Shown here: piece by piece, positions 1-34,693 of the stretch
How the letters are laid out: the number at the start of each line of letters is the position of its first letter
Position numbering within the stretch: position 1 is the stretch's first letter
Origin: a virus
Strand: one strand, 5' to 3'
DNA length: 34,693 bases
IMG/VR virus record: IMGVR_UViG_3300030104_005879
Span: 1-34,693 of that record
Translations under genes and position numbers: made by a program
The notes under the pieces: generated by a model
What the model saw: only the letters and a program-made list of their open reading frames with translations
Databases searched by the model: none
Told to the model about the DNA's origin: nothing

Positions 1-259
1 TGTAATAGTCAGTCTATCTTTAGGAGTTTATGCTTTATGGAGTGAATTAAAAAATGCTAAAAAAGAATTAGCTGATGAAAGGAAAGCAAGCAGAGAAGAA
101 TTGAAAGATATGAAAGATGCTCATGCACTTGAATTAAAAGAACTAAATACATATATTAGGGGCAGGGATTTAGATACACAAGATACATTAAATGATGTAG
201 TAGGTGCTGTAGAATCTATCCATCAAATAATTTCTGAAAAATTAAATAATATTAACTGA
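1..259 (+). CDS. Holin-like membrane protein, 5'-truncated by the window edge (copy A)
   Basis: The frame is open from base 2 to the TGA at 257-259 and encodes 85 residues matching the protein at 33933-34229 from its residue 14 onward. The visible part keeps the second half of one hydrophobic segment (VIVSLSLGVYALW) followed by a long charged helix rich in K, E and D. One membrane segment plus a charged coiled coil is typical of small phage holins of the BhlA/UviB kind, which permeabilise the inner membrane so that the muralytic enzyme can act. It sits next to an amidase, which supports a lysis role. The gene only lacks its start because the window begins inside it. The holin call is inferred from topology and context; no catalytic motif exists to confirm it. 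Confidence 0.6.
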   Translation, partial: VIVSLSLGVYALWSELKNAKKELADERKASREELKDMKDAHALELKELNTYIRGRDLDTQDTLNDVVGAVESIHQIISEKLNNIN

Positions 260-387
260 TGTCAGAACAAGAAATAAAAGACTGTAATGAAAAAATTCTT
301 TGTTTTGTTCAAAAGGCAAAATTAAGGATTAAAAAACTTAAGGAAAACTGTAACAAAAGAGACTGCAAAGATAAGAAAAGTGCTTAG
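259..387 (+). CDS. Small basic cysteine-containing protein, 42 aa (copy A)
   Basis: The ATG overlaps the stop of the holin-like gene (TGATG, 257-261), a translational-coupling arrangement. The product is lysine-rich with four cysteines, two of them in CNKRDC near the C-terminus. A second copy with the same length and the same overlap lies at 34229-34357. The proteins differ at only a few positions, and the DNA differences are mostly at third codon positions, so this tiny ORF is very likely a real gene. Its 3' end overlaps the end of the convergent amidase gene by four bases. The function is unknown. Its place between holin and amidase suggests a lysis accessory protein, but nothing in the sequence proves that. 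Confidence 0.6.
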   Translation: MSEQEIKDCNEKILCFVQKAKLRIKKLKENCNKRDCKDKKSA

Positions 388-1286
388 CTAGTCATTTTGT
401 TTTTAGTCCAAATTGCTGTCATTAGTGCAGCTTGTGTTCTTCCTTCTCTATTGTCAAGTATAAACTTGCAGTCAATATCTGATGTGTGAAAGCCAAACTC
501 TTCCAATATAACTCCAAAATTATCATATACATCTAAGTTTTTTAGTATATAAAAGTTTGCTTCATGGTCTTTTTGACCTTCTTTTCCTGGTCTCATTCTC
601 CATTCAGGAAAGAAAAATTTCACATTTTTATAATGATCTGCAGCAATTTCATCACTAAAGGTATTCCCTTTTGTTGTGAATATCATAAAACCTTGCGTTT
701 TGCTTAGTTTATCTGCTGAATGGGTTAATGGTATAGCATTACTATGAAAGGAGTGCAAATAGCCAAAATATCCACAATTAAGGTATGATTTGACTAATGC
801 TACACGTTCAGCTAATGGAGTATCTTTATAAGGGTGATATGTTCTTATAGTTTGTATTCCTTTTTGTGTACATTTATCTATAAACATTTCTGCAGCTATT
901 CTATTTTCATATCCTTCAAAATAATTTCCTCTACCATCATGTAAAGGTAGTTTAGGGTGATATGCTCTTTTCCCTTTGGTGGTATAAATACCATTAGGAT
1001 CAATTCCTCCATGACCTGCATCAACAAAAATTACAAACCTTTTCTTTTTAAAGTCCATCATTTTGCTTGTAGTCATTTGTGCTATATGATTTATTTTAGT
1101 CATTGTAACATTTCCTACTATTCCATCATTCTTAAGATTGTATTTTGATTGGAATATTTTTACAGCTTTTCTTGTATGATCTCCAAACTGACCATCTATT
1201 AAAATATTAGTATTTAAAATAGCATTTAATTTAGTTTGTAAATCTTTTACTTCTTCTCCTTTTGAGCCAAATGTCATTAAATACAT
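384..1286 (-). CDS. N-acetylmuramoyl-L-alanine amidase with N-terminal peptidoglycan-binding domain (endolysin)
   Basis: The 300-aa product has a PG_binding_1-like domain at about residues 6-65 (GSKGEEVKDLQ, DGQFG, AVKIFQ, DGIVG) and an Amidase_3-type zinc amidase domain at about 84-298. Likely zinc ligands are H92 in DAGHGG, E127 in GYENRIA and H181 in HSFHSNA; the catalytic glutamate is probably E262 or E263 in ILEEFGFHTSD. Amidase_3 enzymes cut the bond between N-acetylmuramic acid and L-alanine of peptidoglycan, so this is the probable endolysin. No signal peptide is seen, so export would need the holin. It is the only complete - strand gene in the window and faces the holin-like gene tail to tail. 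A second, diverged copy is cut by the right edge of the window. An alternative start lies three codons in. Confidence 0.9.
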   Translation of the reverse strand: MYLMTFGSKGEEVKDLQTKLNAILNTNILIDGQFGDHTRKAVKIFQSKYNLKNDGIVGNVTMTKINHIAQMTTSKMMDFKKKRFVIFVDAGHGGIDPNGIYTTKGKRAYHPKLPLHDGRGNYFEGYENRIAAEMFIDKCTQKGIQTIRTYHPYKDTPLAERVALVKSYLNCGYFGYLHSFHSNAIPLTHSADKLSKTQGFMIFTTKGNTFSDEIAADHYKNVKFFFPEWRMRPGKEGQKDHEANFYILKNLDVYDNFGVILEEFGFHTSDIDCKFILDNREGRTQAALMTAIWTKNKMTS

Positions 1287-1396: not shown

Positions 1397-1717
1397 ATGG
1401 CAACTGCAAAAAAAACTTATTGGACAATAGTATTAAAACCACAAATTGAAGCAACATTAAATAAAATGGATGCTCCTAAAGAATGGAAAAAAGGAATGCT
1501 TAAATTACAAAAAGGATTAAACACAGCAAGAAATATTGTAGCTTCAAAGGGATGGCAAGCAGGTATAGAATCAATGGATAAGTATTATAAATTATGTAGG
1601 TTTTTAGGAATGCCTGACGTGGTAATTGGCAAAAGTCCAAATGATAAATATTGGAGAAAATATGCAGAATTGGAAGGCTATGTGTATAGATGGAATATTG
1701 GTGATGCTTTATGTTAA
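1397..1717 (+). CDS. Hypothetical protein, 106 aa
   Basis: The product is not recognised. It is a basic, soluble protein with many lysines and tryptophans (KKTYWTIVLKP, EWKKGMLKLQKG, GWQAGIESMDKYYKL), predicted mainly helical and without a signal peptide or membrane segment. It is the first gene rightward from the divergent region beside the amidase and has a typical A-rich leader. Being first in the early block makes a host-takeover or DNA-binding role possible, but that is only inferred from position. Confidence 0.7.
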   Translation: MATAKKTYWTIVLKPQIEATLNKMDAPKEWKKGMLKLQKGLNTARNIVASKGWQAGIESMDKYYKLCRFLGMPDVVIGKSPNDKYWRKYAELEGYVYRWNIGDALC

Positions 1718-1753
1718 AACTCCTATTTTTTCAAACAACAAAAACAAATCAAA

Positions 1754-2083
1754 ATGAAATCTAAAGTATTTAAAATTGCACACGCAGTAAAAACTGAATT
1801 TAGCACATGGTCTGAAGCATTAAAATTTGCTTGGACTAAAGTCAAACTTCAAAGAAGTCTTAAGGAATTACCTGTTGATATAGAAAAACAAGAAGGAGGA
1901 TTATTCTTTATCTTTAAGAAAAAATCTACAGGAGAAAACAGATTAGCACAAGGAACATTGAACCTTGAAACAGAATATACTCCTTCAGCACCTAAAAAAA
2001 TCAACTATTTTATACAGAAGTTTTTTGACGTTAAAAAAAGAGCCTGGAGATCTTTGGATGTTAGAACACTAATTGAATATTAA
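1754..2083 (+). CDS. SH3-barrel (WYL_2/DUF2693-like) protein, 109 aa
   Basis: The N-terminal part (FKIAHAVKTEF.TWSEALKFAWTKVKL, about residues 6-33) matches a pattern I know from small Bacteroidetes and phage proteins, a histidine followed by S-x-ALK-x-AW-x-x-K. The C-terminal half (INYFIQKFFDVKKRAWRSLDVRTLIEY) resembles the Sm/SH3-like barrel of the WYL_2 (DUF2693) family. Such domains are thought to bind nucleic acids or ligands, but the role in phages is not settled. The start is preceded by the recurrent CAAACAAC leader, and a strong terminator follows 6 bases after the stop. The assignment is from memory of the family pattern and should be confirmed by profile search. Confidence 0.55.
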   Translation: MKSKVFKIAHAVKTEFSTWSEALKFAWTKVKLQRSLKELPVDIEKQEGGLFFIFKKKSTGENRLAQGTLNLETEYTPSAPKKINYFIQKFFDVKKRAWRSLDVRTLIEY

Positions 2084-2089
2084 TCATAA

Positions 2090-2137
2090 AAGGTTAGGAG
2101 CAATGTTTATATGCATAGCTTCTGACCTTATTTTTTT
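2090..2137 (+). terminator. Rho-independent terminator after the first early genes
   Basis: A 12-bp stem (AAGGTTAGGAGC at 2090-2101 with GCTTCTGACCTT at 2118-2129, two G-U pairs) is followed by a run of seven T at 2131-2137. The 16-base loop is long and may fold further. It closes the 1397-2083 transcription unit; genes beyond would need read-through or their own start. Confidence 0.75.
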
Positions 2138-2158
2138 AAGCACATAAATAATAAAAAA

Positions 2159-2410
2159 ATGAGTGAAAAAGTAACAGTTTATATAAGTGAATGGAGTGAT
2201 GAAAAACTAAAAAATGAATTAAAAATTGAATTAGATTATCAAAAAGATTTAAGCTATTTTTTTTCATTTATTGATAAAGCATTAAAAGATAAATTTAACA
2301 TTAGCTTTGAATATTTGATGGAACATGCTGATGCTAATGCTCAACATATTATAGCAATAGATGAAGAACTAAAATCAAGATCAAATTATTATCCAAACAA
2401 CTTAAATTAA
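2159..2410 (+). CDS. Hypothetical acidic protein, 83 aa
   Basis: This gene follows directly after the terminator at 2090-2137. The product is not recognised. It is soluble, predicted mostly helical, and contains KNELKIELDYQKDLSYFFSF and a C-terminal segment rich in A, D and E. The stop is 4 bases before the next start, so the two are likely co-translated. No motif indicates a function. Confidence 0.65.
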   Translation: MSEKVTVYISEWSDEKLKNELKIELDYQKDLSYFFSFIDKALKDKFNISFEYLMEHADANAQHIIAIDEELKSRSNYYPNNLN

Positions 2411-2414
2411 AATT

Positions 2415-2792
2415 ATGCCTATCAAAAAATTATTTTCAAAGGATCAAGAATTAAGAATTAATGCTTTAGCTAATGCTCAAAAAGAACAAGAAGCATTAGA
2501 AAAAGAAGTAGAAAAATTAAAACAACAAAACACTAATATGCAGTACAATATTGAAATTTACGTTGATGGTAAAAAAGCAAAATATGGACATTTTTTCAAT
2601 TTAGATATTGAAGAAGCAGCAGATGAACTTATACAATATGATTACTTTTCTGAAAAATATACATTGGAAGAATTGGAATTTCTTTTAGAAGTTGGTTTTA
2701 CTGATTGTTCACCATATTTATATTTAGGATGTTCATTGCTTAACTTTAAGGTTACAAGATGGAACAAAGAACTTTATAAAGATATGATATGA
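2415..2792 (+). CDS. Hypothetical protein with N-terminal coiled coil, 125 aa
   Basis: Residues of about 10-45 form a heptad-like coiled coil (LANAQKEQEALEKEVEKLKQQN), followed by a compact acidic domain containing a tyrosine-rich patch (CSPYLYLGCS). There is no signal peptide. It lies in a chain of short early genes with 4-base gaps or overlaps: the next ORF starts at 2789 inside its stop codon. The family is not recognised. Confidence 0.65.
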   Translation: MPIKKLFSKDQELRINALANAQKEQEALEKEVEKLKQQNTNMQYNIEIYVDGKKAKYGHFFNLDIEEAADELIQYDYFSEKYTLEELEFLLEVGFTDCSPYLYLGCSLLNFKVTRWNKELYKDMI

Positions 2793-2923
2793 AAAAGAAA
2801 AAATTTAAAGCAGGTGATACTATCACTTGGGAAGTAAAGTATAAAAAAATTTATATAACTAAAGCAATAGAAAAAAATGAAATCAAAAGAAATTTATATG
2901 TGCCAAGTGCAAATCAAAGATAG
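2789..2923 (+). CDS. Short basic hypothetical protein, 44 aa
   Basis: The ATG at 2789 overlaps the stop of the preceding gene (ATGA), the standard coupling pattern in this block. The frame encodes a lysine-rich peptide beginning MKKKKFKAGDTITWEVKYKK, reminiscent of a small beta-barrel, and ends in TAG at 2921-2923. It overlaps the following gene in another frame by up to 47 bases, which lowers confidence. If that gene starts at its next Met (2898), the overlap shrinks to 26 bases. Confidence 0.45.
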   Translation: MKKKKFKAGDTITWEVKYKKIYITKAIEKNEIKRNLYVPSANQR

Positions 2924-3083
2924 AGGAGTAACATTCCCTTTAAGTAAAGCCATAGAAGTGCATGAACCAGTTCAATTGAATGTACAAAAGTTTTTAAAAA
3001 ACAATTGTCATGCTATGGATTTAAGCAAATATTTTGAATTTGAAATATTAAATAAAAAATTAATAGGTTATGGCAATGTATAA
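2877..3083 (+). CDS. Hypothetical protein, 68 aa
   Basis: The product has no recognised family. It contains two cysteines and a short beta-rich stretch (YMCQVQIKDRGVTFPLSKAIEVHEPVQLNVQKFL). The start is uncertain: ATG at 2877 gives a 47-base overlap with the previous ORF, while ATG at 2898 (MCQVQIKDRG) gives a smaller one. It belongs to the dense early gene chain; the next small ORF starts inside its 3' end. Confidence 0.5.
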   Translation: MKSKEIYMCQVQIKDRGVTFPLSKAIEVHEPVQLNVQKFLKNNCHAMDLSKYFEFEILNKKLIGYGNV

Positions 3084-3171
3084 GAAATTTTGTAAAAGAT
3101 GGAATCTAAAACCTAATAGATATTCTTCATTAAAAACTTATAAAACATGGTTAAAATACTTAAAATATTGA
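3076..3171 (+). CDS. Possible 31-aa basic peptide
   Basis: This short ORF overlaps the end of the 2877-3083 gene and the first 25 bases of the glucosaminidase gene. The peptide is strongly basic and aromatic (MYKKFCKRWNLKPNRYSSLK). Such an ORF could arise by chance in AT-rich DNA. Its tight stop-start overlap matches the local gene style, which is the only support. Confidence 0.3.
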   Translation: MYKKFCKRWNLKPNRYSSLKTYKTWLKYLKY

Positions 3172-3857
3172 TAGTGCTTATAGGAGTTATTTTACTAAGC
3201 ACAAACAATATAAAACAAGAAGAAGTGATATATGCAGGAAGGTTTGAACCTGCTGCAGTAGAACAAAAGTATAATATGCTTGGATTACCTTCTAATAGAT
3301 TATGGATGTCACAATCAGAATGGAAAGGTGAGCAAATCACAAACAAGCTAATTAAATACAGATTTAAGGCTTGGAAAAAAATCCATATAGAAGAATGGGT
3401 TAACCATATGATCCAAGAAGCAAAGAAAGAATCTAAAGTATTTCCTGATATACCTTATCAGCTTTATGTGGCACAGGCTATTCTTGAATCTAATTATGGT
3501 TTGAGTAAATTGGCTAATGATGGTAATAATTTATATGGTCATAAATATAGAGGACAATCTGAAGGCTTTTTAGTGATGGCTGATGATAGTCCAACAGATA
3601 AATTTACTAAGTTTAAAAGCCAATGGTATTCTTTAAGGTCACATTCTTATCTGCTTATGAACAAATATAGGAAAAGGATTAAAGCAAAAAATCCTACTCT
3701 GCAGGATTGGTATAAAGCACTTTGTGGAGCAACCAATATTCAAGGAAGTAGAAGATGGGTAAGCAGGGGTAATTCTGTTTATGCAACTTCATGTTTCAAT
3801 GGCACTTGCTATATTGATAAATTGAAATCTATTATAAAAAAATATAAATTGAAATAA
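3147..3857 (+). CDS. Glucosaminidase-family peptidoglycan hydrolase with N-terminal membrane anchor or signal
   Basis: The 236-aa product begins with a short hydrophobic segment (residues 4-18, ILKILIVLIGVILLS), probably a signal peptide or signal anchor. The mature part carries the FlgJ/Glucosaminidase (PF01832) pattern: AQAILESNYGLSKLA with probable catalytic E114, then NNLYGHK at 128-133, and a later DWYKALCGATNIQGSRRWVS region. Enzymes of this family cut the glycan strand of peptidoglycan at N-acetylglucosamine. With its own export signal it can reach the cell wall without a holin, unlike the amidase. It lies among early genes, far from the lysis cassette, so it might act in lysis, in superinfection exclusion or as a virion-associated enzyme; context alone cannot decide. 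Confidence 0.85.
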   Translation: MVKILKILIVLIGVILLSTNNIKQEEVIYAGRFEPAAVEQKYNMLGLPSNRLWMSQSEWKGEQITNKLIKYRFKAWKKIHIEEWVNHMIQEAKKESKVFPDIPYQLYVAQAILESNYGLSKLANDGNNLYGHKYRGQSEGFLVMADDSPTDKFTKFKSQWYSLRSHSYLLMNKYRKRIKAKNPTLQDWYKALCGATNIQGSRRWVSRGNSVYATSCFNGTCYIDKLKSIIKKYKLK

Positions 3858-3858
3858 A

Positions 3859-4098
3859 ATGAATGGATTAGAAAAAAAACAGTTTGAATTTAGAATTAAA
3901 AAAAAGAATAAAGAATTAAAAGAATTTCAAGAGTTAATAAGATTTAGAAATTTAGAAATAAGATCATTAAAGCAACAGCTTAATTCTAGTAATTCTAAAT
4001 TAGAAACATGTAAAAATAAAATACAAACTTATAAAGATAAGATTGTAAATTTAGAAACTAATTATAAAAAATTGATACAATACAAAAGAAATAATTAA
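3859..4098 (+). CDS. Coiled-coil hypothetical protein, 79 aa
   Basis: Almost the whole product is one charged heptad-repeat helix (KKKNKELKEFQELI, LEIRSLKQQLNSSNSKLETC). It starts one base after the glucosaminidase stop codon, so the two are probably co-translated. There is no membrane segment. Its function is unknown. Confidence 0.6.
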   Translation: MNGLEKKQFEFRIKKKNKELKEFQELIRFRNLEIRSLKQQLNSSNSKLETCKNKIQTYKDKIVNLETNYKKLIQYKRNN

Positions 4099-4115
4099 TA
4101 TAAAAAACTAAAAAA

Positions 4116-4394
4116 ATGGACATTAATAACAGGCAAAAGATTAAAAATCTTATCTTAGAATATATTGAAAGGGAAAAGATCACTACTTACATCCTGCAAA
4201 AAGCAGAAGCAAATTTTAAAGTATATCCTTTAGGAGTATCTTTTATTACTATAAATAGGATTTTAAACAACAAAAAATATATTCCCAGTCCTAGAACATT
4301 GATTAAGATTTTTGATGTAATAGGAGTAGAATATACTTTTGATTATGGCATACTAAATTTTGAATATAAACTTGAAAACAACTATTCTTATTAA
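4116..4394 (+). CDS. Small helix-turn-helix DNA-binding protein, 92 aa
   Basis: Residues of about 20-70 resemble an XRE/Cro-type helix-turn-helix: helices ILEYIEREKITTYILQKA and GVSFITINRILNNKKYIPSPRTLIKIFDVIGV, the second carrying the recognition-helix pattern that ends in a ...P...TL..I...IGV segment. This fits a phage transcription regulator acting on early or replication promoters. It overlaps the next gene by 35 bases. There is no adjacent integrase or divergent repressor partner, so a lysogeny switch is not indicated. Confidence 0.6.
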   Translation: MDINNRQKIKNLILEYIEREKITTYILQKAEANFKVYPLGVSFITINRILNNKKYIPSPRTLIKIFDVIGVEYTFDYGILNFEYKLENNYSY

Positions 4395-4725
4395 AGGTAT
4401 TGTTCATGGAATGAATGGTAAGCATGGATTAATTAGGGAACACTTTAGAACAGCTAAAAGGAAGAAGGAATTGTATAAGGTGTTAATTAAAAGCCAAACA
4501 AAAAATGAGCACAAAGGCAAAGTTAAAATCAGATACATAGGTTATAAATCTATACTTATGGATTGGGATAACTTTGCTGCTTCATTTAAGCACTTAGGTG
4601 ATGCTCTAGTAAGCTGTAAGGTGATAGTTGATGATAAGCCTGCTATAGTCCAGGAGTTTATTCCTGAACAGATAAAATGCAAAAGAAAGGATCAAAGAGT
4701 AATAATTATTATTGAAGATTGTTAA
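4360..4725 (+). CDS. RusA-like Holliday junction resolvase, 121 aa
   Basis: The key segment is LMDWDNFAASFKHLGDALVSCKVIVDDKPAI: D68 and D70 with N71, K77, D81 and the pair D91-D92, the arrangement of metal-binding acidic residues in RusA endodeoxyribonucleases. The length (about 120 aa) is normal for the family. The N-terminal strand LKTTILIKGIVHGMNG fits the family's opening strand and glycine-rich turn, so the upstream ATG at 4360, overlapping the previous gene by 35 bases, is preferred over the Met at 4411. RusA dimers cut four-way junctions, resolving recombination and branched replication intermediates before packaging. It sits next to the ERF/exonuclease module, which suits this role. 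Confidence 0.7.
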   Translation: MNINLKTTILIKGIVHGMNGKHGLIREHFRTAKRKKELYKVLIKSQTKNEHKGKVKIRYIGYKSILMDWDNFAASFKHLGDALVSCKVIVDDKPAIVQEFIPEQIKCKRKDQRVIIIIEDC

Positions 4726-4792
4726 TTATTCAAAATAATTTCTTATATTGCAGATGATATAAGGCTAATCTATAAGGCATACTAAGTGTTTG

Positions 4793-4830
4793 AACCTTGT
4801 TAAGTTTTTTAACTTTTCAAGGTTTTTTTT
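4793..4830 (+). terminator. Rho-independent terminator ending the first early block
   Basis: AACCTTG at 4793-4799 pairs with CAAGGTT near 4818-4824, with GTTAA/TTAAC extending the stem inside, followed by eight T. The 257-base gap from 4726 to 4982 otherwise contains no gene that I can see, only this terminator, poly-A/T tracts and the likely promoter for the recombination operon. Confidence 0.75.
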
Positions 4831-4888
4831 ATGAAATTTTGTTAAAAAACAGAGAAATTTGCACTTTTTTTAAAAAAAAACAATAAAA

Positions 4889-4931
4889 TTTGCTTCAAAT
4901 GTTGTGTATATTAAAACTTTGTTTTATATTG
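4889..4931 (+). promoter_or_regulatory. Candidate promoter for the recombination operon
   Basis: TTTG at 4889-4892 and AAACTTTG at 4914-4921 (21 bases between them) approximate the Bacteroidetes -33 TTTG and -7 TAnnTTTG elements with one mismatch. A second overlapping option is TTG at 4902-4904 with TATATTGT at 4925-4932. Being downstream of a terminator and 50-90 bases before the start at 4983 makes a promoter necessary here; which option is used is uncertain. Confidence 0.4.
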
Positions 4932-4982
4932 TGATATCATTAGTTAATTACTTATTTAAACAAACAACAAAAAAATCAAATC

Positions 4983-5303
4983 ATGATTAAAGATATTAAA
5001 AATTCAATAGTAGTAAATATAGAGCATTGTGGAGATGGGTTAATATATGAATTGCAATTTTTAGAAAATGATACCTATCAGCAGTTCCATTTATTATATG
5101 ATGCTTTATGTAATTATTATCCTGAAGATTTTGATCTTTCTCTACTAGCTTATGAATCTTTTGATGATTTAAGCTATAAGATAGAAACTTTAATAGAAAA
5201 TGAAGAAATGGAGTTTTATCTCTTTGATGGTATAGATGTTTATCATATAGATGAATCTGATAAATTCAATAAAAATTGTTATACTAATCCTAAATTTATG
5301 TAG
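4983..5303 (+). CDS. Acidic hypothetical protein, 106 aa
   Basis: The product is strongly acidic (DALCNYYPEDFDLSLLAYESFDDLSYKIETLIENEEMEFYLFDG) and predicted soluble. Small, highly acidic early phage proteins are often DNA mimics or inhibitors of host nucleases or RNA polymerase, but nothing here beyond charge supports that. The start is preceded by the canonical ACAAACAACAA leader (4960-4970). It lies upstream of the ERF gene with 57 bases between. Confidence 0.65.
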   Translation: MIKDIKNSIVVNIEHCGDGLIYELQFLENDTYQQFHLLYDALCNYYPEDFDLSLLAYESFDDLSYKIETLIENEEMEFYLFDGIDVYHIDESDKFNKNCYTNPKFM

Positions 5304-5360
5304 ATGAAAAAAAGGTTATATTTATAAAAAATTCTTTAAATAATTTAAAACACAAACAAC

Positions 5361-5963
5361 ATGAATGTGATACACTTAAGTCCTCAAATGTGGCAAACTG
5401 AAGAAATTTCAGAACTGGCTAAAGCATTAATAAACTTTGGCAAAGACTTCCAAAAAGCATCACTTAAGAAAGATGCTCAAAACCAATATCTGAAGAACCA
5501 ATATATTACTTTAGATAACTTATTAAATACCTGCAGACCATTGCTTACAAAACATAATTTAATAGTAACACAGGAGTTAGCAGGTGAGTATATTGTTACT
5601 ACTCTTTACCATGAATCAGGTCAATTTAAAGGATCAGCTATGATCTTTAATCCAATGGCAGGTAATAAAAGCACTAACAACCTTCAAGCTATTGGAGGAG
5701 GAATTACATATGCTAAAAGGTATGCGTTAGGTGCTCTTTTATGTATTTCTACAGATGTAGATGATGATGGTAATTCTACTCCTGATACATCTTTTAAAAA
5801 ACAAAAAAAAAGTGATCTTCCTGTAGGCTTGTATGAACATGCTGCAAAAGCTTATATTAGAGATGGGAATCTGAATAGTGTAAAAAATAAATATACTGTA
5901 TCAAAATCTGCTGAAAAAGTAATTCTTAACAATGCTAATAACTTAGAAAAAATTAATGAGTAA
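5361..5963 (+). CDS. erf: ERF-family single-strand annealing protein
   Basis: The 200-aa product shows the ERF superfamily core: ELAKALINFGKDFQKASLKK near the N-terminus, the NQYITLDNLLNTCRPLLTKHNLIVTQ segment, and the signature QAIGGGITYAKRYALGALLCI (109-129) followed by the acidic VDDDGN. ERF proteins coat single strands and anneal complementary DNA, driving phage recombination and circularisation. The next gene, overlapping by 8 bases, encodes an exonuclease that would make the single strands, the usual annealing protein/exonuclease pair. The ATG is immediately preceded by ACACAAACAAC. Confidence 0.9.
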   Translation: MNVIHLSPQMWQTEEISELAKALINFGKDFQKASLKKDAQNQYLKNQYITLDNLLNTCRPLLTKHNLIVTQELAGEYIVTTLYHESGQFKGSAMIFNPMAGNKSTNNLQAIGGGITYAKRYALGALLCISTDVDDDGNSTPDTSFKKQKKSDLPVGLYEHAAKAYIRDGNLNSVKNKYTVSKSAEKVILNNANNLEKINE

Positions 5964-6609
5964 TTGGCTAAATATTGAACAAAATACACCTGAATGGCTT
6001 AATATACGTTCAGGTGTATTTACTTCTTCTAATATCTACAATTTGTTTGTAAGTGCTAAAAAAGGAGATGAGTTCAGCAAATCAGCACATACCTATATAA
6101 AGCAAAAAGCAATTGAAACTATTTACCCATTTGAGTTAGATAATTCTTTTTCAGGTAAAGCAATTCAATGGGGGAATGATTATGAGCAGGATGCTGTGAA
6201 AGTTTATGAAGTTACTACAGGAAGCAATGTGACAAATGGAGGGTTTTTTGTATTTGATGAATATACTGGTTCATCTCCTGATGGACTTGTAGATACAGAT
6301 GGACAAATAGAAATTAAATGTCCATATGTTAAGGTCAATCATTTAAACAATGTTTTATACTTAAATGATGATGTGGATTTATATAAAAAGTCTAAGCAGT
6401 ATTATTATCAGGTACATCATCAATTATATTGTAGTGGAAGGGATTATGTAGACTTTATGAGTTTTGACCCTAGACTTCTATCCTCTAAAAATTTTCTTCA
6501 TGTAATAAGAATAGAAAGAAATCAGGAACTGATGGAGCAAATGGCAGAAGTGATATATAAAGCAGGGAAGGAAAAAGATAAAATCATAGAGCAGTTTCTA
6601 AACAGATAA
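5956..6609 (+). CDS. YqaJ-type (lambda exonuclease family) recombination exonuclease
   Basis: The 217-aa product has the YqaJ fold markers: QNTPEWLNIRSGVFTSSNIYNLF at the N-terminus, GKAIQWGNDYEQDA with E77, GSSPDGLVDTDGQIEIKCP giving the PD-(D/E)XK core D109, E119 and K121, and the YYYQVHHQLYCSG segment near 149-160. Such enzymes digest one strand of duplex ends 5' to 3', leaving single-stranded DNA for the neighbouring ERF protein. The 8-base overlap with that gene suggests translational coupling. The stop codon runs straight into the bipartite repeat at 6609. Confidence 0.9.
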   Translation: MSNWLNIEQNTPEWLNIRSGVFTSSNIYNLFVSAKKGDEFSKSAHTYIKQKAIETIYPFELDNSFSGKAIQWGNDYEQDAVKVYEVTTGSNVTNGGFFVFDEYTGSSPDGLVDTDGQIEIKCPYVKVNHLNNVLYLNDDVDLYKKSKQYYYQVHHQLYCSGRDYVDFMSFDPRLLSSKNFLHVIRIERNQELMEQMAEVIYKAGKEKDKIIEQFLNR

Positions 6610-6652
6610 CTCTATATATTAAGCTGTTTCTATTGACATTTTTTGTCAAATT
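6609..6652 (+). promoter_or_regulatory. Bipartite repeat, copy 1 (upstream of methyltransferase)
   Basis: ACTCTATATA (6609-6618), 12 unrelated bases, then a 22-base block containing the inverted repeat TTGACATTTTTTGTCAA (6633-6649). The same two blocks with exactly the same 12-base spacing recur at 8221-8264, right after the methyltransferase gene. The palindrome (6-bp arms, T-rich centre) looks like a protein-binding site. Here no clear TAnnTTTG follows at the right distance, so this copy may be an operator or a divergent promoter type. The start at 6679 follows 26 bases later with an AACAACAAAAAAC leader. Confidence 0.6.
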
Positions 6653-6678
6653 ATATACAATAAAAAACAACAAAAAAC

Positions 6679-8220
6679 ATGAATGTATTAAGCCTTTTTG
6701 ATGGTATGAGCTGTGGTCAATTAGCATTGAATAGATTAGGAATTAAGGTAGATAACTACTTTGCTTCAGAGATAGATAAATATGCTATACAAGTTACCAA
6801 AGCAAATTATCCAAACACTAAACATATAGGAAGTGTAGTAGATGTTAAAGCTGCAGACCTTCCTAAAATTCATTTATTAATAGGTGGTAGTCCTTGCCAA
6901 TCATTTAGCTTTGCAGGTAAGCGCAAAGGAATGAGTACAAAGTGCAATCAGGAAATACTTACTTTGGAGCATTATTTACAACTTAAAACTGATGGCTTTG
7001 AGTTTGAAGGTCAATCTTATTTATTTTGGGAATATATGAGATTGCTAAAGGAAACTAAACCTAAATACTTTTTATTGGAAAATGTTATGATGGGAGATAA
7101 ATGGCAAAAAGTACTATCTAAAACTATAGGCATTGATCCCATTATGATTAATTCATCTTTACTATCTGCCCAAAATAGAAAGAGATTGTACTGGACTAAT
7201 ATAGGCACTAATAAAAATAATCTATTTGGAATAGAGCAACCAGGAATAAAGCAACCAAAGGATAAAGGTATTTTGTTAAAGGATGTTTTGGAAAGTGATG
7301 TAGAGCAAAAGTATTTTTTAAGTGATAATGCTATTAAAACTGTTGCAAGAAGTAAACATGGTAAACAATGTTTGAATTTAAATAAAAAATCTATATGTTT
7401 AGTAGCAGTTTATTATAAACAAGGTAGAGATAAACAATATATAAATACCCAAAAAATTTTGGGGGCAGGTTGTAGAATGGATGATAATTATATAAATACA
7501 AGTTTACTTAAAAGTAAAAATATAAATTCTATCCCAAAAAACACAAAAAATTATTTAGAAGTAAAAAGGAAAGTAAAGGTCAGAAAAAATAAAGTAGATA
7601 TAAAAGCCTTACAAAAGCTATTAAAAAAACATAAAAAAAGTACTTACAAAAAAATTTCTGAAGATTTAAATGTTAATTTAACTATTGTAGAACATTGGTT
7701 CAGAACAGATAAGTATTTTTCTATTCCAGATCCTGATATATGGCTAAAATTAAAAGAATATTTAAACATAGATATAAATGATTTTGATAATAGCATAATG
7801 GAATTTATAGAAAAAGATGGTAATTTTGACCAATCAAACAGAGTATATACTACAGCAAATAAAAGTCCATGTTTAACTTCTGCAAAAAAAGATAATTGTA
7901 TTTTTGTTCCTGAAAACACTAAAAAAGGATTTGCAGAAATAGAAGATGGTCAATGCTTTGATGCTACACAACCTAACTATAAAACTAGGAGAGGCAGTAA
8001 GATGGATAAAAAAACTAACTGCTTAACTACTACTACACCTGAATTTTATTTATATAAAAATGCTAAAATAAGAAGATTAACACCTATAGAATGTGAAAGG
8101 CTTCAAACTGTACCTGATAACTATACTAATCATGTTTCAGATTCTCAAAGATATAAAATGTTAGGTAATGGATGGACTATAGATGTAATAGCTTATATAT
8201 TAAAGCATATGAATTTATAA
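6679..8220 (+). CDS. DNA cytosine-C5 methyltransferase
   Basis: All main C5-methylase motifs are visible in the 513-aa product: motif I FDGMSCG (7-13), motif IV GGSPCQSF with catalytic C73, motif VI LLENV (E135), motif VIII QNRKR (165-169), motif IX RRLTPIECERLQ (465-476) and motif X MLGNGWTIDVI (494-504). Between VIII and IX lies a long target-recognition region (about 190-460). It contains a helix-turn-helix-like insert (308-345, KKISEDLNVNLTIVEHWFRTD) and two similar blocks (NRVYTTANKSPCLT and KMDKKTNCLTTTTP). The enzyme transfers a methyl group from S-adenosylmethionine to cytosine, probably shielding phage DNA from host restriction. No restriction partner is nearby. It is framed by two copies of a 44-base bipartite repeat, which suggests separate regulation or later acquisition. 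Its recognition site cannot be read from sequence. Confidence 0.93.
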   Translation: MNVLSLFDGMSCGQLALNRLGIKVDNYFASEIDKYAIQVTKANYPNTKHIGSVVDVKAADLPKIHLLIGGSPCQSFSFAGKRKGMSTKCNQEILTLEHYLQLKTDGFEFEGQSYLFWEYMRLLKETKPKYFLLENVMMGDKWQKVLSKTIGIDPIMINSSLLSAQNRKRLYWTNIGTNKNNLFGIEQPGIKQPKDKGILLKDVLESDVEQKYFLSDNAIKTVARSKHGKQCLNLNKKSICLVAVYYKQGRDKQYINTQKILGAGCRMDDNYINTSLLKSKNINSIPKNTKNYLEVKRKVKVRKNKVDIKALQKLLKKHKKSTYKKISEDLNVNLTIVEHWFRTDKYFSIPDPDIWLKLKEYLNIDINDFDNSIMEFIEKDGNFDQSNRVYTTANKSPCLTSAKKDNCIFVPENTKKGFAEIEDGQCFDATQPNYKTRRGSKMDKKTNCLTTTTPEFYLYKNAKIRRLTPIECERLQTVPDNYTNHVSDSQRYKMLGNGWTIDVIAYILKHMNL

Positions 8221-8264
8221 ACTCTATATAGCAAGGTGGATTTATTGACATTTTTTGTCAAATT
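8221..8264 (+). promoter_or_regulatory. Bipartite repeat, copy 2 (upstream of replication operon)
   Basis: This is the same ACTCTATATA (8221-8230), 12-base spacer and TTGACATTTTTTGTCAA palindrome (8245-8261) as at 6609-6652. It starts immediately after the stop codon of the methyltransferase gene. The right arm of the palindrome overlaps the TTG of the predicted promoter at 8255, so a bound protein would be well placed to repress or activate the replication genes. Confidence 0.6.
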
Positions 8265-8286
8265 TACTATAAAATAATTATATTTG
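8255..8286 (+). promoter_or_regulatory. Bacteroidetes-type promoter for the replication operon
   Basis: TTG (8255-8257), 21 bases, then TATATTTG (8279-8286) exactly fits the flavobacterial/Bacteroidetes consensus TTG-N17-23-TAnnTTTG. Initiation would fall around 8293, giving a short leader that begins near the ACAAACAACA element before the ATG at 8311. This is the best promoter match in the window. Confidence 0.6.
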
Positions 8287-8310
8287 TAAGACAAACAACA
8301 AAACACTAAT

Positions 8311-9102
8311 ATGCAAAATCCTAACTATTATTCTATTATACCTGCTGAAGTAAGATATGATAAAAACTTAGTACCTAATGCTAAGCTATTATATGCTGAA
8401 ATTACAGCACTTCTCAATATCAATGGCCATTGCTTTGCTTCCAACAGATACTTTGCTAATTTATACAATAAAAGCACTATAACCATTTCAAGGTGGATAA
8501 GCCAATTAAAGAAATTAGGTTATATAGATACACATATACAATATAAAAAAGGCACAAAACAAATTGAAAGTAGAAGTATTACCCTATCAAAAAAAATGAT
8601 AATACCTATTAACAAAAATAATAATAGGGGTATTAACAAAAATGTTAAGGATAATATTAATAATACTAAAGTATTATATAATAATATTAATAAAAATAAT
8701 AAAAAAGGAAAAAAACAATTTGATATTCATCTTTGCACTTTTCCTGATATATTCCAAAAAAATGTTAAATTGAAAAAGGTGTTTTTTGAATTTGTAGAAA
8801 TGAGAAAAGAATTAAAAAAGCCTTTAAAAACTAAAAAAGGAGTAGAAACTAAATTAAGATCACTAGCAAGGGATTGTGAAAAATATGGAACTGATATAGT
8901 AATTGGTGCTATATACCAATCAATAGAAAATGAGTATAAAGGTATTTTTGTCAAGTCTTATGCTAAAAACAACAAACAACATGAACAATCAACTAATGAC
9001 AAAGGAAGCATCTATGAAAATTATGCAAAGATGCTCTATGCAGACACAATGCAGAACAAAGGAAATTCAGACCATTGTGCAGGGGAAGAATGCCAATTTT
9101 AG
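8311..9102 (+). CDS. Replication initiator with N-terminal winged helix (HTH_36-like)
   Basis: The 263-aa product begins with a HTH_36-type winged helix: YYSIIPAEVRYDKNLVPNAKLLYAEITALLN, then FASNRYFANLYNKSTITISRWISQLKKLGYI (about 5-75). A low-complexity linker rich in N, K and I (about 90-135) joins it to a C-terminal helical domain ending in SLARDCEKYGTDIVIGAIYQSIENEYKGIFVKSYAK, a pattern of DnaD/replisome-organiser-like proteins. The layout resembles lambda O-type initiators, which bind an origin inside their own gene and recruit the helicase. The linker-coding DNA here holds repeats and a palindrome. It follows the best promoter in the window and overlaps the next gene by 122 bases. Confidence 0.75.
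   Translation: MQNPNYYSIIPAEVRYDKNLVPNAKLLYAEITALLNINGHCFASNRYFANLYNKSTITISRWISQLKKLGYIDTHIQYKKGTKQIESRSITLSKKMIIPINKNNNRGINKNVKDNINNTKVLYNNINKNNKKGKKQFDIHLCTFPDIFQKNVKLKKVFFEFVEMRKELKKPLKTKKGVETKLRSLARDCEKYGTDIVIGAIYQSIENEYKGIFVKSYAKNNKQHEQSTNDKGSIYENYAKMLYADTMQNKGNSDHCAGEECQF
8607..8700 (+). other. Candidate replication origin inside the initiator gene
   Basis: The segment is nearly pure A/T and contains a 13-base direct repeat TATTAACAAAAAT at 8607-8619 and 8631-8643, a perfect hairpin ATAATACT-AA-AGTATTAT at 8660-8677, and the repeat ATAATATTAATAA flanking it at 8651-8663 and 8681-8693. Iterons plus an AT-rich unwinding region within the initiator's linker-coding region match the lambda O/ori layout. 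Low-complexity asparagine/lysine coding could produce some repetition by itself, so this is a candidate only. Confidence 0.5.
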
Positions 9103-9862
9103 AAGTGTATTAAAATCTAATAATGAGCAACAGATACAACAGCAATTCAATAAACTTTGTTTAAGTATTTTATTTTTAGCCAATACATACACAGGAGCAA
9201 AATTCCAAAATCCTCCAAGTGAAGATGATAAAAACACTTTAAGAAGTTGTGCTAAATTTATTATAGATATGTTTCCACAGCTTGGACAATGTGAACTGGA
9301 GTTAATCTTTCAATTAGCAGCAGCAGGGAAATTTAATATAAACCTAGAAACTTATTATGGGAAATTTTCAGTAAACTTTTTAGGGAAATTATTAACTAAC
9401 TATTTAACTTTTAGAAATAAAATTATTTTAACTTATGAAAAAGAGAAGGAGAAGGATCAAGCTAAAGAGCAACAGCAACAAGCTGAAGAAAAAAACCAAA
9501 GGACAAAAGAGCAAATTATTGAAAAATACAGGGTATTAAAGCAATCTTTTGAAGAATTAGGAGTATTACCTGAATTTGATGATGTGCAGTCTTTTTGGGC
9601 AAAAATTTTGATTGATGCTAATATTATACATTTTACTGAAAATGAAAAAAAATGTATATGGGAAGAAGCTAAAGCCAAAACTGAAAGGATCATAAAAAAT
9701 GAATATTGTAAAGCAAGTTTAACAGATAGAAACAAAAAAAATCTAAGAAATCTAATCAAGAAAATTTCTGAAGGAAAGCAGGACAATGATTTCAATTCAA
9801 AAGCTGTTATTGTTTATTCAAAAATGCTTATAATAAAATCCATATACAATGAAGATGATTAA
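8981..9862 (+). CDS. Probable replication accessory protein, 293 aa
   Basis: The start at 8981 is chosen because ACAAACAAC directly precedes it, as before other genes here; an in-frame ATG at 8930 lies deeper in the upstream gene and lacks this leader. The product has a helical N-terminal domain with ELELIFQLAAAGKFNINLETYYGKFSVNFLGKLLTNYLTFR (about 120-160), a charged coiled coil (EKEKEKDQAKEQQQQAEEKNQ, about 165-190) and a helical C-terminal domain. Similar ...AAAGK...Y..FS...... patterns occur in Bacteroidetes phage replication regions. By position it could be a helicase loader or primosome partner, but no Walker motif is visible. The first 122 bases overlap the initiator gene in another frame. 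Confidence 0.6.
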   Translation: MNNQLMTKEASMKIMQRCSMQTQCRTKEIQTIVQGKNANFRSVLKSNNEQQIQQQFNKLCLSILFLANTYTGAKFQNPPSEDDKNTLRSCAKFIIDMFPQLGQCELELIFQLAAAGKFNINLETYYGKFSVNFLGKLLTNYLTFRNKIILTYEKEKEKDQAKEQQQQAEEKNQRTKEQIIEKYRVLKQSFEELGVLPEFDDVQSFWAKILIDANIIHFTENEKKCIWEEAKAKTERIIKNEYCKASLTDRNKKNLRNLIKKISEGKQDNDFNSKAVIVYSKMLIIKSIYNEDD

Positions 9863-10190
9863 CTATGTATTAATTGCACAATCTACCCTTATTTTAATTC
9901 TTTTTGTTTGGTTGGTGTTATACCCTAAAAAAGAAAATGAAGTTAATTATGACAAAATAAGACAACAGAATGAGCAGATTATACAACAGCTTCAAAAACA
10001 ATTGGAGCAATTGCAAGAGCAAAGTAAAATAATAGCATTAAAATTAGATACTTTAAAAATCAAAATACCTAAAGAACAGATAAAGCTAAATGTGATAAAT
10101 GAAAAAATTAATTCTATCAAAAACAATATTCAGACTTACAATTATACTGATTCTTCTGACCAGTACCTTATCAGCAGATTGTCAAAGTAG
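9849..10190 (+). CDS. Single-pass membrane protein with coiled coil (spanin-like partner 1)
   Basis: The 113-aa product has one N-terminal membrane segment (about 6-24, VLIAQSTLILILFVWLVLY), then a positive PKK and a long glutamine-rich coiled coil (IIQQLQKQLEQLQEQSKIIALKLDTLKIK). This is the topology of inner-membrane Rz-type spanins. It overlaps both the previous gene (14 bases) and the next one (92 bases, different frame). The nested pair recalls Rz/Rz1, which link inner and outer membranes in the last step of lysis of Gram-negative cells. Its place in the replication module is unusual for a lysis gene, so the analogy is tentative. A role in anchoring the replication complex to the membrane is possible. 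Confidence 0.55.
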   Translation: MKMINYVLIAQSTLILILFVWLVLYPKKENEVNYDKIRQQNEQIIQQLQKQLEQLQEQSKIIALKLDTLKIKIPKEQIKLNVINEKINSIKNNIQTYNYTDSSDQYLISRLSK

Positions 10191-10551
10191 CACATTGTGT
10201 TTAGAAAGGTCTATACTTGAAAATGTAGCAACTAAATTAGATTCTTTTAGTGCTCTAAAAGAATTACAACCATTTTATAAAAGCAGATATAATACCTGCT
10301 TAAGTTTGAACAAAACACAAAGCCAAGTTATAGAGTATCAAAGCCAGTTATTAAAAAATAATAAAATACAAATAAGCAAATTTGAATCCATTGAAATAAA
10401 ATATCAAGAAACATTGAATTTTAATGATAAGCACCTTCAGGAGTTATTAAAGAAAAATAGAAAACAAAAAACTATTAATAGAATTACTCTAATAGGTGGA
10501 GGAGCATTAACAATAGCACTAACTACAGCACTTTTAATTTCTTTACTATAA
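10099..10551 (+). CDS. Secreted/membrane coiled-coil protein (spanin-like partner 2)
   Basis: The 150-aa product starts with a signal-peptide-like segment (residues 10-26, IFRLTIILILLTSTLSA) followed by a cysteine (DCQSS). The residue before the cysteine is Asp, so this is not a standard lipobox. The middle is a helical coiled coil with several cysteines (KSRYNTCLSLNKTQSQVIEYQSQLL), and the C-terminus has a second hydrophobic segment (about 133-150, ITLIGGGALTIALTTALLISLL). The mature part probably lies in the periplasm. Its first 92 bases lie within the preceding membrane protein gene. The C-terminal membrane segment differs from classical outer-membrane spanins, so it may instead be a unimolecular or novel type. 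Confidence 0.55.
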   Translation: MKKLILSKTIFRLTIILILLTSTLSADCQSSTLCLERSILENVATKLDSFSALKELQPFYKSRYNTCLSLNKTQSQVIEYQSQLLKNNKIQISKFESIEIKYQETLNFNDKHLQELLKKNRKQKTINRITLIGGGALTIALTTALLISLL

Positions 10552-10562
10552 AAACAAACAAC

Positions 10563-10940
10563 ATGAAACCAAATCAAGCTAATGAAGATTACATCAACAA
10601 GAAACTTATATACTGCTCTTTACTCCTGCAGGAATATGCATACATTCAACTTATAGATTCTCCTATTATTAGAGGAACTATAAAACACCAATTAAAAACC
10701 AAATTAAGATTTGTTAAAAATCAATTAGTGCAAATGGGAAATGATGCAAGGATTTCAAGAAAAGCCATACAACAAAGTGAAGATAGTGCTATAGAAAATG
10801 TAGCACTAATGGCTCAACTCCTTTCATCTTCTGCAATAATTCCACCATGTCAATGTGATTTTATAGAAGAAGAATTTCTTAAGATATGTAAAAGAGCAGT
10901 AGAAAATTTTCAAAATAAACAAGGGGAAAAGGTTATATAA
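10563..10940 (+). CDS. Helical hypothetical protein, 125 aa
   Basis: The product is soluble, predicted all-helical (LIYCSLLLQEYAYIQLIDSPIIRGTIKHQLKTKLRFVKNQLVQMG) with a PPCQC motif near residue 98. The ATG is directly preceded by AAAACAAACAAC. It lies between the membrane pair and the ssDNA-binding-like gene. The family is not recognised. Confidence 0.65.
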   Translation: MKPNQANEDYINKKLIYCSLLLQEYAYIQLIDSPIIRGTIKHQLKTKLRFVKNQLVQMGNDARISRKAIQQSEDSAIENVALMAQLLSSSAIIPPCQCDFIEEEFLKICKRAVENFQNKQGEKVI

Positions 10941-32286: not shown

Positions 32287-33915
32287 ATGTCAATGAAAGT
32301 ATACCTTAATGGGGATTTAGTAACTTTAGAAAAGAATGCTGAACCTACAATTACTATAAATCAATTATATTGCATTTTTTTAATTAAAAATGGAAATGTA
32401 TATATATATAATAAACAAAATACTTCAATATTAGCATATGATACAATAGAAGAAATTAAAGATGTTTCTAATGTTGCAATAGGTACACTAAGCCAAGTTA
32501 ATGACTATTTAAAAGGGTTTATAAGAATTGGAAGTGTACAAACAAAAGCAAATCCAATAGGTGAAACATTTGATAATATTAGAATTAATTTTAAGTTAGA
32601 TTCTACTGCTAATTCTATTTTATTTCAAAATACAGTAACTTCAAATATTTTAGATGTTCATAATGTTAATACTATTCAAGCAGTAGCAAATGGAACTGAT
32701 ATAAGAATACAATTAATAGGTGGGCATAAAATACTTATTGATAGATTAGATTTAGAAGGAGTTTTTATTAATAGTAGTTTAGTTACTCAAGTATTAGCTA
32801 CTGCAATTGTTGAACTTAATGCACTTTTTTCTGTTGCAGGTTTAGGAGTTGCTCCTGTAATAACAGCATCTACAACTATTTCCTTAACAACAGGGAACAG
32901 TTTAAACTGGGAAATGACTGCTACAAATGCTGTTGCATATCAATTTGAATATTTGCCTTCAGGAATTACAACTTTAGCAAGTACAGGTAAACCTAATGTA
33001 TTAATAGGAGGATCAAGTTTAGCAGCAGGAACATATACCTTTACAGGAAAAGCATTGTCTTATGGAGGAGAAGATAGCAAAACTTTTTCATTAGTAGTTG
33101 CTGCAAGTTTTACAAATACATATAGTTTTGAAACTGCATCAGGAACTACTTGCGTTTATAATGGAAGTGGAACAAATAATTCTGTACCTATGTATAGAGC
33201 AGCAGATGGAACTGGAAGCAGTGATGCTTGGAGCGTTCATTTTTGGTATAATATACCTAGTGCAGGAGCATGGACACAAAACTATTTTTTTTCATTTGGG
33301 TATATTTATGGTTCTTCAGGTGGTAATGGTGGAGGATGTCACATAAATCATTGGGGTAGTACTTTTAAATTTGTTTATGGTGATGCTTTTGGTAATTGCT
33401 TTCAATTATCTTTTTCAAGATCACATACTCTAAACACATGGCATTCAATGTTAATTTGTTACACAGGAAATAGCACAGGAACTTCTACTGCTAATGCAGC
33501 TGCTCAATTTACTATATATATAGATTCTGTTGCAATTACTCCAACTGTAACACAAATAACAGGGAGTAATGGATATACAGGTTCAATAGAAAAGTCCTTA
33601 AATGCTCATTCTGTAGATATGTGTATAGGTGGGATTTGTAGTACTGCAGGAGCTATTGACGCCTGTGGAACTTGTTATATTGATGAACTAGCATGTTGGA
33701 GTTCAGAACTTTCTTCAAGTGATGCAGTTTCATTATATAATTCAGGTACCCCTATAGACTTATCTACAGCTTTTACTCCATTATATAGTGATTGGTGGAG
33801 GATGGGTGATAATTCTGATGTAAGTACATTTCCAGTTCTTAATAATATGTCTTCAGGAAATGATCTTAATGTGGTAGGTGGTTCAGTAGCTTCTTATGTT
33901 TCTCTTGTTCCTTAA
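32287..33915 (+). CDS. Tail fibre / receptor-binding protein with Ig-like and LamG-type domains, 542 aa
   Basis: Three parts are visible: an N-terminal virion-attachment region (1-185), an Ig-like domain (about 190-272, APVITASTTISLTTGNSLNWEMTATNAVAYQFEYLP ending in GTYTFTGKALSYGGEDSKTFSLVV), and a concanavalin A/LamG-like jelly roll (about 277-510, with WSVHFWYNIP, FSFGYIYGSSGGNGGGCHINHWGSTFKFVYG, HTLNTWHSMLICYTG, YIDELACWSSELSSSDAVSLYNSG). The last pattern, YIDEL..W...LS..D...LYN.G, is typical of LamG-like carbohydrate-binding domains. Being the last tail gene before lysis, it probably binds surface glycans of the host and sets host range. Confidence 0.8.
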   Translation: MSMKVYLNGDLVTLEKNAEPTITINQLYCIFLIKNGNVYIYNKQNTSILAYDTIEEIKDVSNVAIGTLSQVNDYLKGFIRIGSVQTKANPIGETFDNIRINFKLDSTANSILFQNTVTSNILDVHNVNTIQAVANGTDIRIQLIGGHKILIDRLDLEGVFINSSLVTQVLATAIVELNALFSVAGLGVAPVITASTTISLTTGNSLNWEMTATNAVAYQFEYLPSGITTLASTGKPNVLIGGSSLAAGTYTFTGKALSYGGEDSKTFSLVVAASFTNTYSFETASGTTCVYNGSGTNNSVPMYRAADGTGSSDAWSVHFWYNIPSAGAWTQNYFFSFGYIYGSSGGNGGGCHINHWGSTFKFVYGDAFGNCFQLSFSRSHTLNTWHSMLICYTGNSTGTSTANAAAQFTIYIDSVAITPTVTQITGSNGYTGSIEKSLNAHSVDMCIGGICSTAGAIDACGTCYIDELACWSSELSSSDAVSLYNSGTPIDLSTAFTPLYSDWWRMGDNSDVSTFPVLNNMSSGNDLNVVGGSVASYVSLVP

Positions 33916-33932: not shown

Positions 33933-34229
33933 ATGGATGCAATTCTTACAAAAATATTAGAGCAATCTCCTGTAATAGTCAGTCTATCTTTAGGAGTTTA
34001 TGCTTTATGGAGTGAATTAAAAAATGCTAAAAAAGAATTAGCCGATGAAAGGAAAGCAAGTAGAGAAGAATTAAAAGATATGAAAGATGCGCACGCACTT
34101 GAATTAAAAGAATTAAATGCTTACATTAGGGAAAGGGATTTAGATACACAAGACACTTTGAATGATGTAGTGGGTGCAGTTGAATCTATTCATCTAATAA
34201 TTTCTGAAAAATTAAACAATACCAACTAA
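33933..34229 (+). CDS. Holin-like membrane protein, 98 aa
   Basis: One N-terminal hydrophobic helix (about 11-26, SPVIVSLSLGVYALW) is followed by a long charged helix (SELKNAKKELADERKASREELKDMKDAHALELKELNAYIRERD) and a short C-terminal tail (VGAVESIHLIISEKLNN). The topology resembles BhlA/UviB-type small holins. It is located between the last tail gene and the amidase, where a holin is expected. The truncated copy at 1-259 has the same frame and only a few amino-acid differences. The start overlaps nothing; an A-rich leader (AAAAAACAAAAAA) precedes it. Confidence 0.65.
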   Translation: MDAILTKILEQSPVIVSLSLGVYALWSELKNAKKELADERKASREELKDMKDAHALELKELNAYIRERDLDTQDTLNDVVGAVESIHLIISEKLNNTN

Positions 34230-34357
34230 TGTCAGAAGAAGAAATAAAAGATTGTAATGAAAAAATCTTATGCTTTGTAAATAAAGCAAAAAAAAGAATT
34301 AAGAAAATAAAAGAAAACTGCAACAAAAGAGATTGCAAGGATAAGAAAAGTGCTTAA
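34229..34357 (+). CDS. Small basic cysteine-containing protein, 42 aa (copy B)
   Basis: This frame matches the one at 259-387 in length, stop-start overlap with the holin-like gene (TAATG) and sequence (MSEEEIKDCNEKILCFVNKA versus MSEQEIKDCNEKILCFVQKA at the start, the same NKRDCKDKKSA end). DNA changes are largely silent, which supports translation. The end overlaps the amidase stop region by four bases. Its function is unknown. Confidence 0.6.
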   Translation: MSEEEIKDCNEKILCFVNKAKKRIKKIKENCNKRDCKDKKSA

Positions 34358-34693
34358 TTAGTCATCTTTTCTTTAGTCCATATAGCAGTTTTTAATGCAG
34401 CATCTGTTCTTGCTTCTCTATTGTCAATTATAAATTGACAGTCAATATCTGATGTATGAAAACCAAATTCTTCTAAGATTGTTCCAAAGTTATCATATAT
34501 ATCAAGGTTTCTTAAAATATAAAAATTTGCTTCGTGGTCTTTCTGACCATCTTTCCCTGCTCTAATTCTCCAATCAGGTAGTAGATTTTTTATATTGTCA
34601 TATAGGTTTTCAGCAATTTCATCACTAAAAGAATTTCCCTTTGTAGTAAACACCATAAAACCCCTCGTTTGACGGAGTTTTTCTTCCGAGTGG
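34354..34693 (-). CDS. N-acetylmuramoyl-L-alanine amidase, N-terminal part beyond the window edge (copy B)
   Basis: The frame is open from the right edge of the window to TAA at 34354-34356, giving 112 C-terminal residues of an Amidase_3-type domain. It includes KDHEANFYIL and the catalytic ILEEFGFHTSDID. Over the last 100 residues it is about 76% identical to the amidase at 384-1286, with conservative differences. It is incomplete only because the window ends. A Met at 34654-34656 is internal, as shown by the upstream codons HSEEKLRQTRGF matching HSADKLSKTQGF of the other copy. Confidence 0.88.
   Translation of the reverse strand, partial: HSEEKLRQTRGFMVFTTKGNSFSDEIAENLYDNIKNLLPDWRIRAGKDGQKDHEANFYILRNLDIYDNFGTILEEFGFHTSDIDCQFIIDNREARTDAALKTAIWTKEKMTN

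Follow-up and report, generated by a model that had tools for sequence, protein, structure and literature searches.

The two ends of the window (the whole stretch of DNA that was analysed, 34,693 bases, which is the entire record of a metagenomic virus contig and belongs to the IMG/VR class 'linear') carry homologous, non-identical copies of one lysis cassette. The window very probably represents a map of ~33,970 bp that is circular or circularly permuted; the assembly would have overrun its own start and crossed at 72 shared bases into the cassette of a co-occurring relative. Such a map, with two alleles and a crossing point at the 72 bases, had been proposed in an earlier sequence-only reading, and it is supported by the gene order in 7/7 related contigs that cover the place.

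Overlap of the two contig ends

Positions 1-723 and 33971-34693 align without a gap at a spacing of 33,970, with 605/723 bases identical (84%) and 118 mismatches, which are split by codon phase into 32, 24, and 62. The first 72 bases (1..72 = 33971-34042, plus strand) all match and the first mismatch is found at base 73, as the sequence-only reading had reported; divergence then climbs from an initial 0% to about 30% over the 723-base overlap. With the 118 mismatches scattered at random, a mismatch-free stretch over the first 72 bases would have a probability of 1.3e-6 (4e-4 when computed with the holin-like ORF only). An identical stretch of this length is too unlikely by chance; base 73 therefore marks a real boundary at which the relationship of the two copies changes, and the shared stretch is a possible allele crossing point. 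The only other long direct repeats in the window are a 58-bp promoter-like pair.

The genes at both contig ends form the same set in the same order and the same frame. Allele A, at the start, comprises a holin-like gene that lacks its first 13 codons as the contig start cuts it (2..259, plus strand), a 42-aa basic ORF (259..387, plus), and a complete endolysin of 300 aa with PG_binding_1 and Amidase_3-like parts (384..1286, minus). Allele B comprises a complete holin-like gene of 98 aa (33933..34229, plus), the first 38 bases of which are single-copy in the contig, a 42-aa basic ORF (34229..34357, plus), and the C-terminal 112 aa of an endolysin cut by the contig end (34354..34692, minus). A fibre-like gene (32287..33915, plus) lies immediately upstream of this cassette. 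The complete copy A endolysin matched PG_binding_1 (E 4e-15), PHROGs endolysin families, and Amidase_3 of Pfam (E 1.7e-5, just under the curated cut-off); the copy B endolysin matched PHROG endolysin 435 (E 3.4e-5). These ORFs and profile matches agree with the earlier assignment of a holin-like tail, a 42-aa ORF, and an amidase endolysin C-terminus to both ends. The holin-like gene gave no match in profile searches of Pfam and PHROGs, and its putative name is based on a short hydrophobic N-terminus and the gene position.

Besides the amidase endolysin, the window encodes a second, independent peptidoglycan hydrolase at 3147-3857, a protein with a Glucosaminidase domain (Pfam E 4.4e-17). Two overlapping ORFs at 9849-10551 match a pair located between the holin-like gene and the endolysin in the related contig G009, where one member of the pair has a hydrophobic N-terminus; in the window, where they lie about 8.5 kb away from the endolysin, the two ORFs may form a spanin-like pair.

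The position of the copies at the two contig ends would also be expected if a linear genome carried a long direct terminal repeat of the T7 or T5 style whose copies had diverged. Such repeats are copied anew from a single template at the cutting of concatemers, which keeps them identical. The sequence-only reading had argued in the same way that an exact terminal repeat would be identical, and the ends are not: they differ by 16%, with near-saturated silent sites, where identity is expected. The same genes are also internal, not terminal, in the contigs of relatives. A diverged terminal repeat is thus scarcely credible.

Divergence of the two cassette copies

Synonymous and nonsynonymous changes between copies A and B were estimated by Nei-Gojobori counts, and reading frames are intact throughout both copies. 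The holin-like tails share 82/86 columns (stop counted), with dN 0.022, dS 0.46, and dN/dS 0.05. The 42-aa ORFs share 39/43 columns (dN 0.069, dS 1.76, dN/dS 0.04), and the endolysin C-termini share 84/113 (dN 0.153, dS 1.13, dN/dS 0.14); with genes this short and silent sites close to saturation, all these estimates are approximate. The differences had been described as mostly silent. This holds for the holin-like tail and the 42-aa ORF, where nearly all changes are silent, but not for the endolysin C-terminus, where 37.5 synonymous changes stand against 37.5 nonsynonymous ones.

Both copies are under purifying selection. Low dN/dS (0.04-0.14) together with high dS (from 0.46 to near saturation) indicates that both are working genes and that they come from separate lineages. 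A and B look like long-separated working alleles, not like a recent or decaying duplicate, and judged from these substitution patterns a long-parted pair of working genes is more easily understood as alleles of different phages than as a surplus copy within a single genome. A tree of endolysin C-termini places A and B as sisters (support 96/95), separate from every other relative found; B therefore comes from close kin of A's owner and not from an unrelated phage. A diversity-generating retroelement, which would confine mismatches to the adenines of one copy, was rejected: the changes include A>G 13, G>A 16, T>C 22, C>T 17, and others, and 62/118 fall in one phase.

Gene order in related virus contigs

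Useful relatives were reached through the portal protein and an endolysin alignment. Portal matches among IMG/VR contigs are 67-80% identical, and more distant ones were found in phages of Flavobacterium, Bacteroides, and Croceibacter. Protein scans with a single endolysin or a single holin-like sequence as query, in a set that may lack the nearest records, gave no relatives, and no DNA match to 1-1400 was found in the phage collection. The cassette place lies within seven related virus contigs. In G012 (40,909 bp), G010 (37,450 bp), G002 (27,452 bp), L052, L053, and L058, tail/fibre genes are followed by a holin-like gene, an endolysin on the opposite strand, and early genes. G009 (32,143 bp) begins in the fibre gene and runs unbroken through the holin-like gene, endolysin, early, packaging, and tail genes, an order that would be the very join needed by the window; its holin-like gene is 62% identical to that of the window and its endolysin is of a diverged type (26% identical). 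The fibre-like gene of the window resembles by its N-terminus the gene following the tail genes in relatives, and by its C-terminus the gene preceding the holin-like gene in G009. All seven relatives carry one cassette per contig, internally, at the place where the two ends of the window would join, and the structural genes from terminase to tail are collinear with those of the window. The window is therefore best read as one turn of a closed map. No end overlap of their own was found in G012, G010, G002, and G009.

These relatives also bear on a tandem duplication, in which one phage would carry two diverged lysis cassettes in a row and the contig would break at the 72-base repeat. The sequence-only reading had named such a phage with two endolysins as its alternative. 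It would predict a contig start at the repeat and a gap-free alignment just as well, so the break at the 72-base stretch does not discriminate, and two-endolysin phages are reported in the literature. But tandem cassettes were found in 0/7 syntenic relatives, the 12/12 virus records that were searched whole and carry this endolysin have one copy, and no second homologue of it was found in any virus contig checked. The silent divergence, high to near saturation, is too deep for a recent duplication, so the event would have to be old, yet it is absent from kin. Were both cassettes on one molecule at equal depth, the contig should also reach the next holin-like gene, ~600 bases beyond its actual end, rather than stop inside the endolysin. 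We concluded that a tandem duplication is unlikely, and slightly more so its elaborate form, in which one lineage would stably hold two tandem cassettes under purifying selection on both, with amidase endolysins differing in specificity or timing.

The final 723 bases might instead belong to another phage that was falsely joined at random, in which case the map would not be circular. An exact shared stretch can unite two genomes in this way (PMC11443906). The fibre gene upstream, however, runs into the very holin-like gene and endolysin that are found there in relatives, so this end is the right place for a cassette of that kind, regardless of the strain that supplied it. We consider a random chimera improbable; it would differ from the circular map mainly in which strain owns the last bases.

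Certain observations count against the circular map with two strains. Exact scans of viral contigs, in a set that may lack the nearest records, gave 0 matches to the shared 57-mer, an allele-B 48-mer, and the fibre-holin junction, and so showed no second contig of the same population. The shared length of 72 is not among the typical odd k-mer lengths of terminal repeats. The early region is also arranged differently from that of the relatives, and the genes after 1397 lack a one-to-one match there; on this side the join thus rests on the whole endolysin gene in copy A.

This early region (1397-10940) is almost wholly on the plus strand. The relatives carry their homologues of the YqaJ-like exonuclease, the ERF annealing protein, and the gene at 1754-2083 on the minus strand, adjoining the endolysin. 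By this comparison the early block has been inverted and reshuffled in the window, with the endolysin left as the only clear minus-strand gene. The 58-bp direct repeats (6608-6665 and 8220-8277, 79% alike) flank a C5 DNA methylase gene (6679-8220). In each, a -10-like box follows the dyad TTGACATTTTTTGTCAA; exact matches to the dyad number 2, where 0.06 would be expected if up to 2 mismatches are allowed. The pair looks like a duplicated promoter/operator.

Assembly of the contig and comparison with known systems

In the scheme that we infer, which includes the circularity of the phage, the co-occurrence of two strains in one sample, the linkage, and the behaviour of the assembler, the contig would cover a tailed-phage map of ~33,970 bp once and overrun it by 723 bases. 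Such a phage would have a single lysis cassette (holin-like gene, 42-aa ORF, and convergent endolysin) between fibre and early genes, and the sample would hold at least two related phages whose cassettes share the 72 bases within the holin-like gene and differ beyond. The assembly would start in the shared stretch with allele A, make a full turn, reach the shared stretch again at 33971, and from there take the allele B branch until support ends inside the endolysin gene; the contig end at 34,693 within that gene fits a low-depth branch. Where a conserved stretch is longer than k, k-mer (de Bruijn) assemblers have no means of matching the pieces before it to those after it (PMC11443906). According to the authors of CheckV, circular genomes or concatemers are often the source of terminal repeats in contigs, and chimeras formed between closely related viruses are among the artefacts (PMC8116208). 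The non-exact repeat at the ends would be missed by an end-repeat test, which may explain why the record was classed 'linear'. For curation, ends with a homologous but non-identical overlap can thus mark a complete genome that is nonetheless classed linear, and the A/B pair provides one natural gauge of lysis-cassette divergence between two closely related phages.

Among known systems, the cassettes of the six relatives other than G009 likewise pair a holin-like gene with a convergent PG_binding_1/Amidase_3-type endolysin after it, which over its length is 56-59% identical to that of the window; they differ in having a single cassette each, and tblastn gave no ORF in them that matches the 42-aa ORF. 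The bacterial genome of Aureispira sp. CCB-QB1 also has homologues of the window endolysin, about 48-50% identical, on at least four contigs (L071, L072, L076, and L077); next to the homologue in L072, two near-identical segments of 391 and 324 bp are repeated. The best portal match in a named phage is the distant Flavobacterium sp. phage 1/32, deposited as circular and complete (42,252 bp). This phage and related Flavobacterium/Bacteroides phages share the portal family (best matches 34-36% identity over 93-97%) and a structural gene order similar to that of the window; phage 1/32 is larger, however, and has no annotated amidase at the cassette position, and the window cassette is closer to the uncultured relatives. 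The closest parallel for the ends themselves is the strain-crossing chimeric end in metagenomic assemblies of circular or circularly permuted viral genomes (compare PMC11443906 and PMC8116208), in which the ends likewise overlap one genome length apart, with an exact stretch followed by strain-specific sequence. The window is unlike the usual case in its long overrun of 651 bases beyond the shared stretch, 18% diverged there. The difference between the ends is most likely a commonplace result of assembling a circular phage map in which strains vary.
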